Positions 52,932 to 58,896 of a stretch of DNA of 58,896 bases are shown piece by piece. The position numbers were made by a program, and so were the translations under genes. Numbering within the stretch: the stretch's first letter is position 1; the number at the start of each line of letters is the position of its first letter. The notes under the pieces were generated by a model. It did not search any database and was not told the origin of the DNA. It saw only the letters and a program-made list of their open reading frames with translations. The stretch is from a bacterium (GTDB lineage Bacteria > Vulcanimicrobiota > Vulcanimicrobiia > Vulcanimicrobiales > Vulcanimicrobiaceae), in contig JAGWSR010000082.1 in assembly GCA_028869385.1 (NCBI GenBank), positions 1-58,896 on the forward strand. Reading direction: 5' to 3'.

Positions 52932-54053
52932 ATGATCGAGATGCCGGTCGTCGTCTGCGGTTTGGGAGGCATGGGGAGCGCCGCGCTCGCGCGCGTGGCG
53001 ATGCGCGGCGTTCGCGTGCTCGGCATCGAGCAGTACGCCCCGGTGCATGCCTTCGGTTCGTCGAGCGGCAAGTCGCGCATCATCCGGCGCGCCTACTTCG
53101 AAGATCCGGCGTACGTGCCGCTGCTCGACCGCGCCTACGAACTCTGGCGCGAGCTCGAAGCGCGCACGCGCGCGCAGGTGCTGCACCTCACCGGATTGCT
53201 CACCCTCGGCTACGACGGCAGCCCCATGCTCGCGGGCGCGCATGCCGCGGCGCGCGCGTACGATATGGACGTGGAGTTCTGGGATGCGTCCGCGATTCGC
53301 GCGCGCTATCCCGCGCTCGCACCGCTCGACGACGAGCACGGCATCTTCGAACGCGACGGCGGATTCGTCGTTCCGGAGCGCGCGATCGAGGCGCACCTCG
53401 CGCTCGCGAAAGATCACGGCGCGCAGACGCGCTTCGGCGTGGGCATGCGCGGGTGGGAGAGCGCGCCGGACGGCGTGCGCGTGACGCTCACCAACGGTGA
53501 GACGATCCGCTGCGAGCAACTCATCCTCACGCTTGGTCCGTGGTTCCGCGAGACGCTCGCCGAGATCGGCGTGCCGCTCGTCATCCAGCGCAACGTGCTC
53601 GCGTGGTTCGCGCCGCGTCGCCCGCTCGGCCCGGACCAGATGCCGTGCTTCTTGATGGATCGGCGCGGGCTACCGTCGGAGTTCTACGGTTTTCCCGATG
53701 TCGGCGACGGCGTGAAGGCCGCGTTTCACGGCTACGGCGAGCATACCGACGCGGCGCACCTCGACCGCGAGGTGCACGAATCCGACGTGCTGCCGCTCGC
53801 ACGCGCGCTCGAGATGTGGATCCCCGGTGCGGCGGGTGCGTATCGCGAGGGCAAGGCCTGCATGTACTCGCTCACGCCCGATCGGCATTTCGTGCTCGAT
53901 CACCATCCGCGCGACGCGCGCGTGACGATCTGCGGCGGCTTCTCGGGTCACGGCTTCAAGTTCGCGAGCGCGATCGGCGAGATCGCCGCGCAACTCGCGC
54001 TCGACGGAGGCTCGCCGCTCCCGATTGCGTTCCTCTCGCTCGCGCGCTTCTAG
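52932..54053 (+). CDS. Sarcosine-oxidase-like FAD oxidoreductase
   Basis: The 373-residue protein has the N-terminal dinucleotide fold VVCGLGGMGSAALARVAMRG, SSSGKSRIIRRAYFEDPAYVPL (the monomeric sarcosine oxidase hallmark), and Cys310 in KACMYSLTPDRHFVLD, the position that carries covalent FAD in that family, then CGGFSGHGFKFASAIGE. The family oxidises N-methyl amino acids (sarcosine, N-methyltryptophan, pipecolate) with O2 to H2O2. The exact substrate is unknown. It converges on and overlaps the membrane-protein gene by 4 bases. Confidence 0.9.
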   Translation: MIEMPVVVCGLGGMGSAALARVAMRGVRVLGIEQYAPVHAFGSSSGKSRIIRRAYFEDPAYVPLLDRAYELWRELEARTRAQVLHLTGLLTLGYDGSPMLAGAHAAARAYDMDVEFWDASAIRARYPALAPLDDEHGIFERDGGFVVPERAIEAHLALAKDHGAQTRFGVGMRGWESAPDGVRVTLTNGETIRCEQLILTLGPWFRETLAEIGVPLVIQRNVLAWFAPRRPLGPDQMPCFLMDRRGLPSEFYGFPDVGDGVKAAFHGYGEHTDAAHLDREVHESDVLPLARALEMWIPGAAGAYREGKACMYSLTPDRHFVLDHHPRDARVTICGGFSGHGFKFASAIGEIAAQLALDGGSPLPIAFLSLARF

Positions 54054-54532
54054 GCAGCGCGATCCAAACGCGCGACGACGAACGCGACCGGAAGGCCGAA
54101 GAAGACGCAGTGCGCGAGCACTTGCACGACGAGTGCGTTCGGCGTGGCGAGCGGCGCGAGTTTTCCGGCGCCGAGCAGCAAGAGATCCATGAACACGTAC
54201 ACGACGATGCCGTACATGAGTCCCGAGATCAACCAGCGCGCGTTCATGAACGGGCGCGTGCTCGCGAGGTACGCGTAGCCGCCGGCCCAACCGACGCTCA
54301 CGATTACGTGCACGAGCAGACCGAGCCATGCGTACGACGTGCTCGACAGCGCGACCGGACCGATTGCGGCGGATGCGATGAACTGCCAGACGCCGAGCAT
54401 GCTGGTATGCTCGGGCAGCGCTATCGCGATCCAAATGAAGAGATCGAACGTCGCGGCACCGACGAGGCCCGCCGCGAGGGCCTGCCGCACGACGAGCGGC
54501 CAGTTGACGCGTTGCTGTTGCTCCGTTGCCAT
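54050..54532 (-). CDS. Small four-span membrane protein, unknown
   Basis: A 160-residue protein with a polar N-terminus (MATEQQQRVNWPLVV) and four predicted spans (AAGLVGAATFDLFIWIAIAL; LGVWQFIASAAIGPVAL; LLVHVIVSVGWAGGYAYL; ISGLMYGIVVYVFMDLLLLG) plus a fifth at the C-terminus (VLAHCVFFGLPVAFVVARL). The pattern is like conserved hypothetical membrane proteins with HVIVS and YGIVVYVFMD elements; no function recognised. It is divergent from the Lgt-like operon. Confidence 0.7.
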   Translation of the reverse strand: MATEQQQRVNWPLVVRQALAAGLVGAATFDLFIWIAIALPEHTSMLGVWQFIASAAIGPVALSSTSYAWLGLLVHVIVSVGWAGGYAYLASTRPFMNARWLISGLMYGIVVYVFMDLLLLGAGKLAPLATPNALVVQVLAHCVFFGLPVAFVVARLDRAA

Positions 54533-54588: not shown

Positions 54589-55287
54589 ATGGCAGGTCTC
54601 GACGTCCACCTCCGCTGGCTCATCGCGGCACCGATCTACGCCTGCGCCTACGCGCTCGCGTGCGCCGTCTTTTGGTGGATGGCGCGGCGGCGGGGGATGG
54701 CCGACGACACGACCCTACGCGTGATGCTCGCCGGGCTCATCGGCGGCTTGGTCGGCGCGAATCTCGTACAGCTCTTCGCGACCGGGCTCCCGGGCAAGAC
54801 GATCGAGGGCGGCATCGTCGGCGGCTGGCTCGCCGTGGAACTGATGAAGCGCCACCTCGGCATGGCGCGCTCGACCGGCGATCTCTTCGCGCTCGCGATC
54901 CCCGCTGGCGAGGCGCTCGGTCGCATCGGCTGCTTCATCGGCGGGTGCTGTTACGGCAAGATTGCGACCGCGCTGCCGTGGGCCGTGTACGATCACGGCG
55001 CACTGCGTCACCCGACGCAGCTCTATCTTTCGTTCGCGGCGCTATGCTGCTTCGCGGTGCTCTACGCGCTCGAACGTCGCGGCATCCTTCCCGACCGCGC
55101 GCTCTTCGCGATCGGCGGTATGCTGTTCTGCGGCGATCGCTTCGTGGTGGAGTTCTTCCGCGCGGGCGCGACGATGCTCGGACCGGTCACCCTCGCGCAG
55201 GTTGGGTGCCTGATCGGGTTCGCGGTATTCGCGACGATCTTCGTACGCGTCATGCACGTGCGCCGCGCCTTCGCATACGCTGCGTGA
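54589..55287 (+). CDS. Lgt-like membrane protein (prolipoprotein diacylglyceryl transferase relative)
   Basis: A 232-residue, about seven-span protein that follows the Lgt fold: RHPTQLY, GRIGCFIGGCCYG for the Lgt signature GRxGNFxNxE, and GMLFCGDRFVVEFFR for the C-terminal arginine region. Key Lgt residues differ: the HGG loop reads EGG (KTIEGGIVGG), and the Asn of GRxGNF is Cys. A CC pair replaces the NxE. It is therefore a paralogue, not the housekeeping Lgt. The GTGA overlap with the next gene and 4-base gap to the radical SAM gene tie it to that operon. A lipid-transfer role on a different acceptor is inferred. Confidence 0.75.
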   Translation: MAGLDVHLRWLIAAPIYACAYALACAVFWWMARRRGMADDTTLRVMLAGLIGGLVGANLVQLFATGLPGKTIEGGIVGGWLAVELMKRHLGMARSTGDLFALAIPAGEALGRIGCFIGGCCYGKIATALPWAVYDHGALRHPTQLYLSFAALCCFAVLYALERRGILPDRALFAIGGMLFCGDRFVVEFFRAGATMLGPVTLAQVGCLIGFAVFATIFVRVMHVRRAFAYAA

Positions 55288-55580
55288 AAACATCGCGCGA
55301 CGCGTTCATCGGGATGCTGATCGTCGGCTTTTGCCTCGGCGCGACCGTGCTCTTTGCCGTGACGGCACTCGCTTCCATTGTGCTCGTTTCAGCGTGGCAG
55401 CCCATGATCGCCGTTTTGCCCGCAGTGCTCGTTATCGCACTCGTCGTAGCGAGTCGGTTCTGGCGGCCGGACGGGATCAATCGCACGAGCGGGTTCCTGC
55501 TCGGACTCGGGATCGGTCTCGCCGGAGCGTGCACGACATGCGTGCTGATCCTGCAAGGCCTCTCGCACACGGGTAACTAG
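55284..55580 (+). CDS. Small membrane protein of the radical SAM operon
   Basis: A 98-residue protein starting at GTG 55284 that overlaps the Lgt-like stop. Three spans: FIGMLIVGFCLGATVLFAV, MIAVLPAVLVIALVVAS and FLLGLGIGLAGACTTCVLIL. The C-terminal TCVLILQ has a CTTC pair. No family recognised. Four bases separate it from the radical SAM gene. Confidence 0.7.
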   Translation: MKTSRDAFIGMLIVGFCLGATVLFAVTALASIVLVSAWQPMIAVLPAVLVIALVVASRFWRPDGINRTSGFLLGLGIGLAGACTTCVLILQGLSHTGN

Positions 55581-55584
55581 CCGA

Positions 55585-57084
55585 ATGCTCGAACTCTACG
55601 ACTACACGATCGTCAAGAGCGTGCGGGCACTCTGCCCGCGCTGCTTCGCGAACGATCCGGATTTCGACCCCGAGTATCCGACCGATATCTGCGACGGCCA
55701 CTTGGTCGAACGTGACGGCAAGATCTACCTGCGGCGCTTCTGCCGCCGCGGTCACGGCGAGGTGTGGTCACTCTACGAAGAGCGCGCCGACCTGTGGCGC
55801 TATCTCCAGCAGTGGCGCGTGCCGACCAAGATCATCAACCCCGACACGCAAGCGATCTATCCCGTGCCGATGGGATACGAGCATGGGCTCGGGCCGACGC
55901 ACCTGCAGCATTCGTGCATCTTTTTGCTCGACATCACCACGCAGTGTAACTTGAGCTGCCCCGCGTGCTACGCGCACTCGAGTCCGGAGAACTCGTTGTA
56001 TCTCCCGCTCGATGCGGCGCTGCACGCCGTCGACACGGCGATCGCGCGAGAGAACGGGCGCCTCGACGTCGTGATGCTCTCGGGCGGCGAACCGACCGTG
56101 CATCCGCAGTTTCGCGAGTTGCTCGCGGCGCTCGTCGAACGCCCGGTGACGCGCATCCTCATCAACACCAACGGCATTCGCCTTGCGAACGACGACGCGT
56201 TCCTGGACCTGCTGCATCGTCACCGCGACCGTGCCGAAGTCTATCTGCAGTACGACGGGCAGCGCGCGAGCACGCACGAGACGCTGCGCGGCATGGACCT
56301 GACCGCCACGAAAGCGCGCGCCGTGCAGCGCCTCTCCGACGCGCGCATCTTCACGACGCTCGTGATGACGGTGACGAACGAGAACGCCGATCAGGTCGGC
56401 GAGGTGCTCGACACGTGCTTCGGTACGCCGTACGTTGGCGGCGCGATGTTTCAGCCGGTCTTCGCGTCGGGACGCGCGCCGGCATTCGATCCGATGGCGC
56501 GCGTCACGACGACGGGCGTGCTCGGACGCATGGAGGCGCAGTCGCGCAACGGCGTGCGCGCGCACGATCTGATCGCGCTGCCGTGCAGTCACCCGGATTG
56601 CTGCTCGATCGGCTATTGGCTCAAAAACAAGGACGGAAGCATTCGCAGCGTGGCTTCGATCGTCGGCGAGGACGCGCTCAAGGCGAACCTGAGCGTGTTC
56701 GGCAACTCGATCGCCTTCTCGGACGGACTCTCGCAAGTGCACAACGCGCTGCTCGGGCTGATGTCGGAGACGATGACGCTCTCGCGCCCCGAACTCGTGG
56801 GGCACCTGAAAGACCTCTGCGCCGCGTGCGATCTCGGCGGACTCACCGGCCTGCTCAAGCTCGCCTTCGGCCGCGATGCGACGGCGTCGTTCGTGGGCGA
56901 ACGCGTGAAGCGCGTGACAGTGAAGCACTTCATGGACGCCGATACGCTCATCACCGAGCGCCTGGAGCAGTGCTGCGTGCACGTCGGCGGCGCCGGCAAC
57001 GATCCCGTGCGCATGCCGTTCTGCGCCGCGCGCCTCTTCCCGAAGGTGCGCGACCGCGCGAATCAAGGCATGGCGACGCGATGA
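55585..57084 (+). CDS. Radical SAM protein of the Tes (tetraether lipid synthase)-like family
   Basis: A 499-residue protein. The N-terminus is a rubredoxin-like zinc/iron domain, Cys17-Pro-Arg-Cys20, Cys36 and Cys53. The radical SAM core has Cys121-x3-Cys125-x2-Cys128 (CNLSCPACY), then SGGEPT (166-171) and LINTNGIRLA, VYLQYDG. Further cysteines for auxiliary clusters are in PCSHPDCC (334, 339, 340), CAAC (412, 415), QCC (463, 464) and PFC (480). This combination resembles the archaeal enzyme MJ0619/Tes, which joins lipid tails to form membrane-spanning tetraethers. Bacterial homologues have been linked to branched tetraethers. The substrate here is unknown; identity is from memory of the family motifs. 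It overlaps the next gene by 4 bp. Confidence 0.82.
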   Translation: MLELYDYTIVKSVRALCPRCFANDPDFDPEYPTDICDGHLVERDGKIYLRRFCRRGHGEVWSLYEERADLWRYLQQWRVPTKIINPDTQAIYPVPMGYEHGLGPTHLQHSCIFLLDITTQCNLSCPACYAHSSPENSLYLPLDAALHAVDTAIARENGRLDVVMLSGGEPTVHPQFRELLAALVERPVTRILINTNGIRLANDDAFLDLLHRHRDRAEVYLQYDGQRASTHETLRGMDLTATKARAVQRLSDARIFTTLVMTVTNENADQVGEVLDTCFGTPYVGGAMFQPVFASGRAPAFDPMARVTTTGVLGRMEAQSRNGVRAHDLIALPCSHPDCCSIGYWLKNKDGSIRSVASIVGEDALKANLSVFGNSIAFSDGLSQVHNALLGLMSETMTLSRPELVGHLKDLCAACDLGGLTGLLKLAFGRDATASFVGERVKRVTVKHFMDADTLITERLEQCCVHVGGAGNDPVRMPFCAARLFPKVRDRANQGMATR

Positions 57085-57431
57085 ACGACGGAGCGCGCGC
57101 CGTGCGCGTGATCGCCGCGGCAATCGGCGGTATCGGCATCGGCGCGTTGCTGATGTATAGCTCATGGTTCGTGGTGGTGATGTCCAGCAGTATATTCGCG
57201 AACGTTCACCCGCCGGCAAAGCAGATCGAGTTTGCGATGTCGGGAGGCGAGGATGCGTACTTCCTCTGCCTCGCGCTCGGCGTGTTCGTCGGCGCGTTCG
57301 CGCTGCTGCGCCGCAAGATGTCGCCTGAATGGCGCGCGTTCTGCATCGGCGCGGCGCTCCCGCTGCTCGGCTTCTTCGCGCTCTGCTCGGCAATGTCGAT
57401 CGGCGATCTGACTTCGACCCCGCATCTGTAA
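57081..57431 (+). CDS. Small membrane protein of the radical SAM operon
   Basis: A 116-residue protein with three spans (VIAAAIGGIGIGALLMYSSW; YFLCLALGVFVGAFALL; AFCIGAALPLLGFFALC). ATG at 57081 overlaps the radical SAM stop (ATGA). No family recognised. Tight coupling to the radical SAM gene suggests a shared membrane process. Confidence 0.75.
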   Translation: MNDGARAVRVIAAAIGGIGIGALLMYSSWFVVVMSSSIFANVHPPAKQIEFAMSGGEDAYFLCLALGVFVGAFALLRRKMSPEWRAFCIGAALPLLGFFALCSAMSIGDLTSTPHL

Positions 57432-57442
57432 GGAGTACCACC

Positions 57443-57706
57443 ATGAACGACAACGTCGAACGCGGCAAAGAGGTCGAGGGGTGGGCTTTCACCTTTTGCA
57501 AGGCGGCGTTTCTCGCGCTCCTCTGCGGCAAGTACGCGGTGCTCGTGCTCTCGCTCGCGGCGGTGGTGCTGTACTCGGCGTCCTACGTGATGGGGGTGCG
57601 GGAGTGGCGCTGCTGGGTGAAGCCGCCGTGGGTCGTGATCTTCTTCGCGGCGGTGGCCGCCGTGCAGATCGCGCTCATGCTCCGCGGCTCGGGCTTCGTC
57701 ATCTAG
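57443..57706 (+). CDS. Small membrane protein
   Basis: An 87-residue protein, two spans (FLALLCGKYAVLVLSLAAVVLYSAS; PPWVVIFFAAVAAVQIALML) after a charged N-terminus. AAGGAG at about 8 bases before ATG marks the start. It sits 11 bases after the preceding gene, so it is likely the last gene of the same operon. Function unknown. Confidence 0.65.
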   Translation: MNDNVERGKEVEGWAFTFCKAAFLALLCGKYAVLVLSLAAVVLYSASYVMGVREWRCWVKPPWVVIFFAAVAAVQIALMLRGSGFVI

Positions 57707-57769
57707 GCGGGCGGCCCTAGTCCCAGTCGACCCTCATCTGCTTCCAAGCTAGTTCTCGGCGAACATGGG

Positions 57770-57775
57770 TATCAT
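57770..57775 (+). promoter_or_regulatory. -10-like element for a possible leaderless transcript
   Basis: TATCAT is followed by seven bases and the ATG at 57783, with no Shine-Dalgarno. This favours ATG 57783 over the earlier in-frame ATG 57765. Confidence 0.35.
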
Positions 57776-57782
57776 GGTCCCC

Positions 57783-58076
57783 ATGATACGCGAACGCTCG
57801 TTTCAAGAGCCCTCGGAGCTGGTCATCTGGAGCGCCACCGCGCTGCTCGGGGTGCTGCTCGGGCTCGGGGTCGCCTTCATGCTCTGGGCGCAGATCCACC
57901 GCACGGGCGAGCCCGCGCTGCTCGACGCGGCCGTCTTCGCCATGGGCCTCGGGCTCGGGCTGGTCGGCCTGGCGCTGCGGAACCTCACCCCCCGGATCTT
58001 CAGCGTGGCCCTCGGCGTCGCGCTCCTGCTGGCCTTTTTCACCCTCGGCGGGGTCTTTTCGACCCTAGCCGGCTAG
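57783..58076 (+). CDS. Small membrane protein, three spans
   Basis: A 97-residue protein (MIRERSFQEPSELV...) with three predicted spans (VIWSATALLGVLLGLGVAFML; DAAVFAMGLGLGLVGLAL; FSVALGVALLLAFFTLG). An earlier ATG at 57765 would add MGIMVP but lies on the -10-like box. No family recognised. It lies just before the heat-shock promoter of groES. Confidence 0.6.
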   Translation: MIRERSFQEPSELVIWSATALLGVLLGLGVAFMLWAQIHRTGEPALLDAAVFAMGLGLGLVGLALRNLTPRIFSVALGVALLLAFFTLGGVFSTLAG

Positions 58077-58492: not shown

Positions 58493-58511
58493 GGAGCACT
58501 AGAAAACACAG

Positions 58512-58896
58512 ATGGCTGCAAAGAGATATGGTGGAATCTACACCATTAAACCCTGGTGGCAGAGCAGATTAGCCGGCATAGAAAGCGCGCTCGTGAAACG
58601 CCATGTGCATCCTGACGTGATCACGTTCGCGGGTGTAGTCTGTGCCGGGCTGCTAGGAGCAGCTCTGTTTGGGTCCGGCCAATGGCCACTGCTCGCTTTA
58701 GCGGTTCCGCCCCTGGCAATAGGGCGACTGGCAGCGAACGCGCTGGATGGATTGGTAGCGCGGCACACCGGCCTGGCGCGCCCCAGAGGAGAAATGTTTA
58801 ACGAATGTTGCGACCGCATCTCTGATATCCTGGTCTTTGCCGGCCTGGCCTTCACCATACAGGTCATTGCCTCGCTCGCCTGGGGAGTGCTGGTGC
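58512..58896 (+). CDS. CDP-alcohol phosphatidyltransferase (3' end outside window)
   Basis: The frame opens with ATG 58512 (MAAKRYGGIYTIKPWWQSR) and remains open to the window end (128 codons). The family motif DGxxAR-x8-Gxxx(D/N)xxxD is Asp79-Gly...Ala83-Arg84, Gly93, Asn97, Asp101; the third acid is Asn, as in the NE..D subgroup. Several spans follow. These enzymes make phospholipid head groups from CDP-diacylglycerol. GC content (about 58-59 percent by hand count) and rare codons (ATA, AGA, TTA, CTA) contrast with all neighbours. GroEL is missing at this spot, and MAAK is also a common GroEL start. Horizontal transfer or a chimeric join is possible. Confidence 0.8.
   Translation, partial: MAAKRYGGIYTIKPWWQSRLAGIESALVKRHVHPDVITFAGVVCAGLLGAALFGSGQWPLLALAVPPLAIGRLAANALDGLVARHTGLARPRGEMFNECCDRISDILVFAGLAFTIQVIASLAWGVLV

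Follow-up and report, generated by a model that had tools for sequence, protein, structure and literature searches.

We analysed a 58,896-nucleotide stretch of DNA (hereafter the window), which is an entire contig (C43; JAGWSR010000082.1) of a 3.08-Mb metagenome-assembled genome (MAG) of the Vulcanimicrobiaceae with completeness listed as 100%, and found that a five-gene operon on its plus strand, lgtL-tm2-rSAM-tm4-tm5, is the local copy of a conserved bacterial module. The module combines an LGT-family membrane protein whose active site is rebuilt, a radical S-adenosylmethionine (SAM) protein that has the fold of archaeal Tes and forms a clade of its own, and one or more small membrane proteins with a conserved cysteine in their last helix, which we term Cys-tail proteins. 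It is widespread and apparently undescribed, and its parts are known families in new forms; within the open-access literature covered, we found no paper in which a Tes-like radical SAM protein is linked to an Lgt relative. The module unites two enzyme classes of well-known but separate lipid chemistry; it is conserved across at least 11 phyla and occurs in easily cultured genera (Flavobacterium, Chitinophaga, Neobacillus, Paenibacillus and Sinomonas) as well as on a plasmid of Mycobacterium avium, and many ordinary bacteria may make a lipid modification not previously known.

The Lgt-like and radical SAM genes are linked across phyla

Linkage was assessed at a named set of loci, the best 80 closest to the window among the matches listed. 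In 57 of the 60 that are well flanked (at least 2.5 kb on each side), a figure specific to that set, the Lgt-like gene lies on the same strand as the rSAM gene and within 2.5 kb of it, with a median gap of 24 bp. An earlier note on this DNA had named non-conservation of the Lgt-like neighbour as a refutation of its proposal, and the neighbour proved to be conserved. The module was found in Eremiobacterota, Chloroflexota, Gemmatimonadota, Actinomycetota, Bacteroidota, Bacillota, Planctomycetota, Armatimonadota, Obscuribacterales, Verrucomicrobiota and Pseudomonadota; these labels come from record titles, several loci are from MAGs, and individual labels may be wrong. Two of them look so: the rSAM of a 'Limnohabitans' locus (L044) falls inside Flavobacterium, and the contig of a 'Rhodospirillales' locus (L025) coincides with an Eremiobacterota relative (G017).

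Two surveys of whole genomes, independent of the named locus set, gave the same picture. Across 79 Flavobacteriales genomes, rSAM and the partner Lgt both occur in the same nine and neither occurs in the other 70, the partner scoring at least 262 bits and all others 99 bits at most. In the window genome and 60 Eremiobacterota relatives, both genes are present in 11, each is found alone in one (fragmented assemblies) and neither in 48. Fisher tests of co-occurrence, which ignore relatedness, gave P values of 5e-12 for Flavobacteriales and 3e-10 for the window relatives. We rejected chance adjacency on the basis of this co-occurrence between genomes together with the synteny in other phyla. The Lgt-like, two Cys-tail and rSAM genes also lie together on plasmid pS2b (NZ_CP076860.1; L117:6222-9542) of a Mycobacterium avium subsp. 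hominissuis sputum isolate; pS2b is typed as mobilizable, and the module it carries is therefore transferable between strains.

The radical SAM protein has a Tes fold but lies outside the Tes clade

The best solved relative of rSAM by sequence is the archaeal GDGT-MAS/Tes 7tol, matched over residues 40-482 at 110 bits. An AlphaFold model built from 36 relatives (predicted local distance difference test score, pLDDT, 81; predicted template modelling score 0.86) matched 7tol with a Z score of 38.3 across 433 residues; entries besides 7tol and 7tom reached Z 21 at most. Given this match, the whole Tes architecture is present in the model, with rubredoxin-like, radical SAM and C-terminal domains. 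Against curated NCBIfam models, however, the protein fell short: it scored 163.7 bits with the Tes model NF045702 (cut-off 450) and 201.9 bits with its top match, the TrsS model NF045646 (cut-off 490). In a quick tree of 66 proteins (SH-aLRT support alone; Edaphobacter, Solibacter and Mss sequences not included), Tes proteins formed one clade (99) and all Lgt-linked rSAMs another (98), with methyltransferase-linked relatives outside both. We therefore rejected a plain Tes identity on the grounds of the score, the separate clade and the replacement of Met439 and Tyr459 (described below), and conclude that rSAM is a member of the wider Tes/MJ0619 family along its full length, yet is not Tes. Accordingly, the Tes-like assignment in the earlier note holds for family and fold and does not extend to the archaeal Tes clade. 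The other refutation that it named, grouping with a different radical SAM family such as PqqE or HopR-like proteins, was also followed up; PqqE reached 19 bits as opposed to 110 bits for Tes, HpnH 34.8 bits of the 225 required, and both identities were rejected.

The protein shares with Tes (MJ0619, MA_1486; 7TOL/7TOM) the full-length fold, the CX3CX2C core, a rubredoxin-like Cys/Cys/Cys/His site and several C-terminal cysteines, and differs from it in its own clade, its score (164 versus 450 bits) and its constant position beside an Lgt relative. The core (Cys121/125/128) and the additional C-terminal cysteines described in the earlier note are present, the latter being C334/C339/C340, C412/C415, C463/C464 and C480. 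Of the N-terminal domain that the note had assigned to Cys17/20, 36 and 53, the cysteines at 17, 20 and 53 stand, whereas Cys36 is unconserved outside part of the Eremiobacterota, being A, V, I or L in most other members; His57 aligns with Tes His36 and is likely the fourth rubredoxin-type ligand, as judged from the alignment. Met439 is replaced by Lys and Tyr459 by Val in the window rSAM, although both are reportedly fully conserved among 1000 archaeal homologues (PMC9433317) and are Met and Tyr in 7tol, in 12 archaeal loci and in L017. The N-terminal auxiliary-cluster residues Cys73, Cys77 and Cys80 are Val, His and Gly in the window protein. These cysteines are gone from the window's subclade and retained by most other Lgt-linked rSAMs, and many of the latter, in Bacteroidota and Bacillota, also have Met at the 439 position.

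TrsS-like radical SAM proteins are the other close comparison, sharing the top NCBIfam match and a related clade. Identity with TrsS was rejected, since rSAM lies far under the cut-off and its neighbours are Lgt-like and Cys-tail proteins instead of a methyltransferase; no methyltransferase gene is present in the window operon, and none recurs beside loci of the Lgt-linked clade. The reference set here consisted of TrsS-like proteins and no equivalog, a search for TrsS equivalogs in Chloroflexota having returned none above the cut-off. Separately, five loci (L015, L089, L100, L119 and L121), including ones from Nitrosotalea, Haloarcula and a Mycolicibacterium plasmid, carry a TrsS-like rSAM adjoining a methyltransferase; they make up another branch of the Tes family, likewise uncharacterised.

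The distinction bears on published surveys. With thresholds of E < 1e-50 and identity > 20%, one study counted Tes homologues in bacteria as candidate sources of branched tetraethers (PMC8941075), and bacterial Tes matches were also counted in PMC11868695. Several Lgt-linked rSAMs from Bacillota, Bacteroidota and Planctomycetota pass these thresholds against 7tol, whereas the window protein does not (1.8e-28; E values computed at an assumed database size of 5e9). Such counts may therefore blend true Tes with the Lgt-linked family, which would affect their use in geochemistry; the two could be told apart by the Lgt-like neighbour and the absence of Tyr459, to which the window's subclade adds the absence of Met439.

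The Lgt-like partner keeps the pocket arginines and has changed acceptor-side residues

The lgtL product scored 90.6 bits with Pfam PF01790 (cut-off 24.9) and 55.1 bits with TIGR00544, below the curated cut-off of 118.9, and its model (pLDDT 93) matched E. coli Lgt 5azb with Z 19.0 over 221 residues, no other entry exceeding Z 9. Mutating H103, R143, N146 or R239 of E. coli Lgt abolishes or strongly cuts activity, and H103 has been proposed to act as the base towards the acceptor thiol (PMC8689077, PMC4728403). When 39 Lgt-like partners were aligned, R143, R239, G142, G154 and P197 were invariant (39/39); position 103 was never His (0/39; Glu in the window), position 151 was never Glu, and position 146, Asn in Lgt, was Cys in 38 of the 39. 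The altered key residues reported for this protein in the earlier note are thus real. Compared with Lgt (5AZB), the partner shares the seven-helix fold, R143, R239, Y/F235 and E/D243, and differs in lacking His103 and Glu151, in its Cys at 146, in its phylogenetic position and in being additional to a canonical Lgt. The partners group in a single clade (100/99) that excludes both canonical Lgt and the remaining LGT proteins, and the canonical gene of the same genome lies elsewhere (C7:7509-8288, 197 bits); on these grounds, and given the altered residues, we rejected a duplicate of canonical Lgt. The conserved arginines suggest that the Lgt-like protein still uses phosphatidylglycerol (PG), and we infer that PG donor handling is kept and the acceptor chemistry changed.

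Two side observations concern this family. LGT paralogs with Cys146 and mostly Tyr103 in Dehalococcoidia, Planctomyces and Paenibacillus (L127, L128, L130, L132 and L136) fall outside the partner clade and are perhaps a further Lgt-like subfamily. In two Armatimonadota loci (L053 and L082) the Lgt-like protein is 46-48% identical to that of the window and L053 has a close tm5, but the rSAM is a long-branched sister with about 35% identity; fast evolution and partner exchange could each account for the mismatch.

A conserved third component: the Cys-tail proteins

Starting from small proteins encoded downstream of rSAM in Bacteroidota, Bacillota and other groups, an iterated profile gathered 97 members across 67 loci. 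Among small open reading frames (ORFs) with transmembrane (TM) helices at the named Lgt-clade loci, it matched 84 of the 198 that lie nearby and 2 of the 135 distant ones. A single Cys in the last helix is by far the most conserved position (99 of 107 members), typically 16-21 residues past the last basic residue (median 18.5 after the last K/R); the positive-inside rule would assign this position to the outward-facing half of the membrane, comparable to that of the cysteine in lipoprotein signal peptides. Some members have an N-terminal zinc ribbon. On the M. avium plasmid, two annotated hypothetical proteins encoded between the Lgt-like and rSAM genes match the profile, although they were outside its training set. 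Tiny Cys-tail proteins of two to three TM helices, tm2 and tm4 in the window, are thus a conserved third component of the module, a status overlooked in the earlier note, which had correctly listed the small membrane proteins. A further small protein of the tm5 type follows in Eremiobacterota and Armatimonadota members; neither tm2 nor tm5 matched a Pfam family.

A possible role in lipidation and lipid-tail modification

We tentatively favour a non-canonical lipidation and lipid-tail module, in which the Lgt-like protein acts on PG and a small-protein cysteine and rSAM on acyl tails, a reading that is plausible but falls short of being probable. In this scheme, the Lgt-like protein would bind PG and either transfer the diacylglyceryl part to the Cys of the small membrane protein or hold it close to that residue; this acceptor, of a non-lipobox type, would sit at roughly the depth of a lipobox cysteine. 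The radical SAM protein would perform radical C-H chemistry on the acyl tails (coupling or another modification) to yield a tail-modified, possibly S-linked lipid, while canonical lipoproteins would be made by the separate Lgt. Action of rSAM on lipid tails is suggested by its homology to Tes, the structure of which holds two phospholipids and which also binds ester phospholipids (PMC9433317). The Cys-tail protein is the candidate acceptor because it is linked to the enzyme gene, has a conserved Cys at a suitable membrane depth and is paired with an enzyme whose acceptor-side residues have changed. A more specific version, with diacylglyceryl from PG placed on the TM Cys of a tiny non-lipobox protein and the tails then rewritten or cross-linked by rSAM, perhaps into a membrane-spanning form, is rather unlikely; if true, many ordinary bacteria would contain a new kind of S-linked, radical-modified lipidated protein. 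A comparable case is that of the Skillet-1 lipocone proteins with a lipobox-like GS motif (PMC12419801), where lipidation of a lipobox-like protein by a non-canonical route has likewise been proposed on computational grounds; there, however, the enzyme family is unrelated, the acceptor is Ser and radical SAM proteins are unmentioned.

Several observations weigh against a lipidation role. The cysteine is probably the acceptor, but the arguments for it are confined to linkage, conservation and depth, and a strict lipobox ([LVI][ASTVI][GAS]C) surrounds it in only 4 of 86 members. His103, the proposed base, is lost, so that possibly no thiol is used. The active site of Lgt faces outward and rSAM is necessarily cytoplasmic, which makes any order of steps tentative. 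The Cys-tail profile is hydrophobic and weak for individual members, the case for them resting on position, strand and the shared Cys, and no member was detected at 12 well-flanked loci.

One alternative is that rSAM couples the acyl tails of two ester phospholipids into diabolic-acid-type lipids, with the Lgt-like and small proteins only presenting or sorting the glycerolipid. The full Tes architecture of the model, the binding of ester phospholipids by Tes and the finding that bacterial membrane-spanning lipids can be ester-linked with PG head groups (PMC13274423) all speak for it, but rSAM lies outside the Tes clade, far under the Tes cut-off, and lacks Met439 and Tyr459. PF09989 (PlsA/Ger-type) was found in none of 12 module genomes, with Thermotoga maritima positive as a control and the elb (ElbD) ether route not searched; this weakens a tetraether reading and makes tetraethers formed through PlsA/Ger unlikely, while leaving room for ester-linked membrane-spanning products. 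We regard this alternative as unlikely. Tes-like tail coupling is likewise a possible activity shared with the bacterial Mss and Ger/PlsA pathway (PMC13274423), from which the module differs in the missing PF09989, a comparison made by that family alone and not by Mss. Tetraethers or membrane-spanning lipids, the latter suggested as the product in the earlier note, are therefore possible but no longer the default, given also the lost auxiliary cluster.

The tandem small-protein paralogs beside the enzyme raise the alternative that rSAM modifies the Cys-tail protein itself, for example by a thioether as in ribosomally synthesized and post-translationally modified peptides (RiPPs), with the Lgt-like protein serving to anchor or lipidate what results. 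The sactipeptide maturase SkfB is indeed the second-best fold and sequence match; however, the Tes fold spans the whole length (Z 38, against 21 for peptide maturases), the N-terminal domain aligns with the rubredoxin-like domain of Tes and not with a leader-binding domain (by alignment; no RiPP recognition element search was made), and the conserved Cys sits in the outward half of its TM helix, making this slightly less likely still. Least likely of the explanations considered, and in our estimate improbable, is methylation or another modification of a single lipid tail (MJ0619-type class D) with an inactive Lgt-like scaffold and no protein lipidation. It would fit the methyltransferase beside the related TrsS-like clade, the replacement in the window rSAM of Met439, a labile cluster ligand in Tes, and the original proposal of MJ0619 as a methylase, which the structure paper could not corroborate (PMC9433317). 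The Lgt-linked clade has no recurrent methyltransferase neighbour, though, and the full conservation of the pocket arginines in the Lgt-like partners runs contrary to a mere remnant.

Operon layout and neighbouring genes

The coordinates and spacing of the five genes given in the earlier note are correct: lgtL overlaps tm2 by 4 bp, 4 bp separate tm2 from rSAM, rSAM overlaps tm4 by 4 bp, and 11 bp lie between tm4 and tm5 (Table 1).

Table 1. Genes of the operon, in window coordinates (aa, amino acids)
Feature	Coordinates	Strand	Evidence
lgtL, Lgt-like LGT-family (PF01790) membrane protein, 232 aa	54589..55287	+	R143/R239 kept; H103 to Glu; N146 to Cys
tm2, Cys-tail small membrane protein, 98 aa, GFLLGLGIGLAGACTTCVLIL, GTG start	55284..55580	+	Iterated Cys-tail profile, 22 bits
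rSAM, Tes-fold radical SAM protein, 499 aa, Lgt-linked clade	55585..57084	+	Structure match, tree, residues
tm4, second Cys-tail small membrane protein, 116 aa, RAFCIGAALPLLGFFALCSAM	57081..57431	+	Cys-tail profile, 28 bits
tm5, membrane protein, 87 aa, GWAFTFCKAAFLALLCGKYA then WRCWVKPPW	57443..57706	+	Adjoins rSAM gene in Eremiobacterota/Armatimonadota members

Upstream of lgtL, a divergent gene for a DUF1440-like membrane protein (54050-54532, minus strand) occupies the same place in L004, L005, L007 and L010. Between the operon and groES lies tm6 (57765-58076), encoding a 103-aa membrane protein for which only two relatives of the same genus, L004 and L005, showed a counterpart at that position. 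At the end of the window (58500-58896), groES is not continued into groEL, unlike in the relative L023; the frame there opens with MAAK like GroEL and then becomes a CDP-alcohol phosphatidyltransferase-like ORF, with GC content down to 0.54, and is possibly a chimeric contig end.

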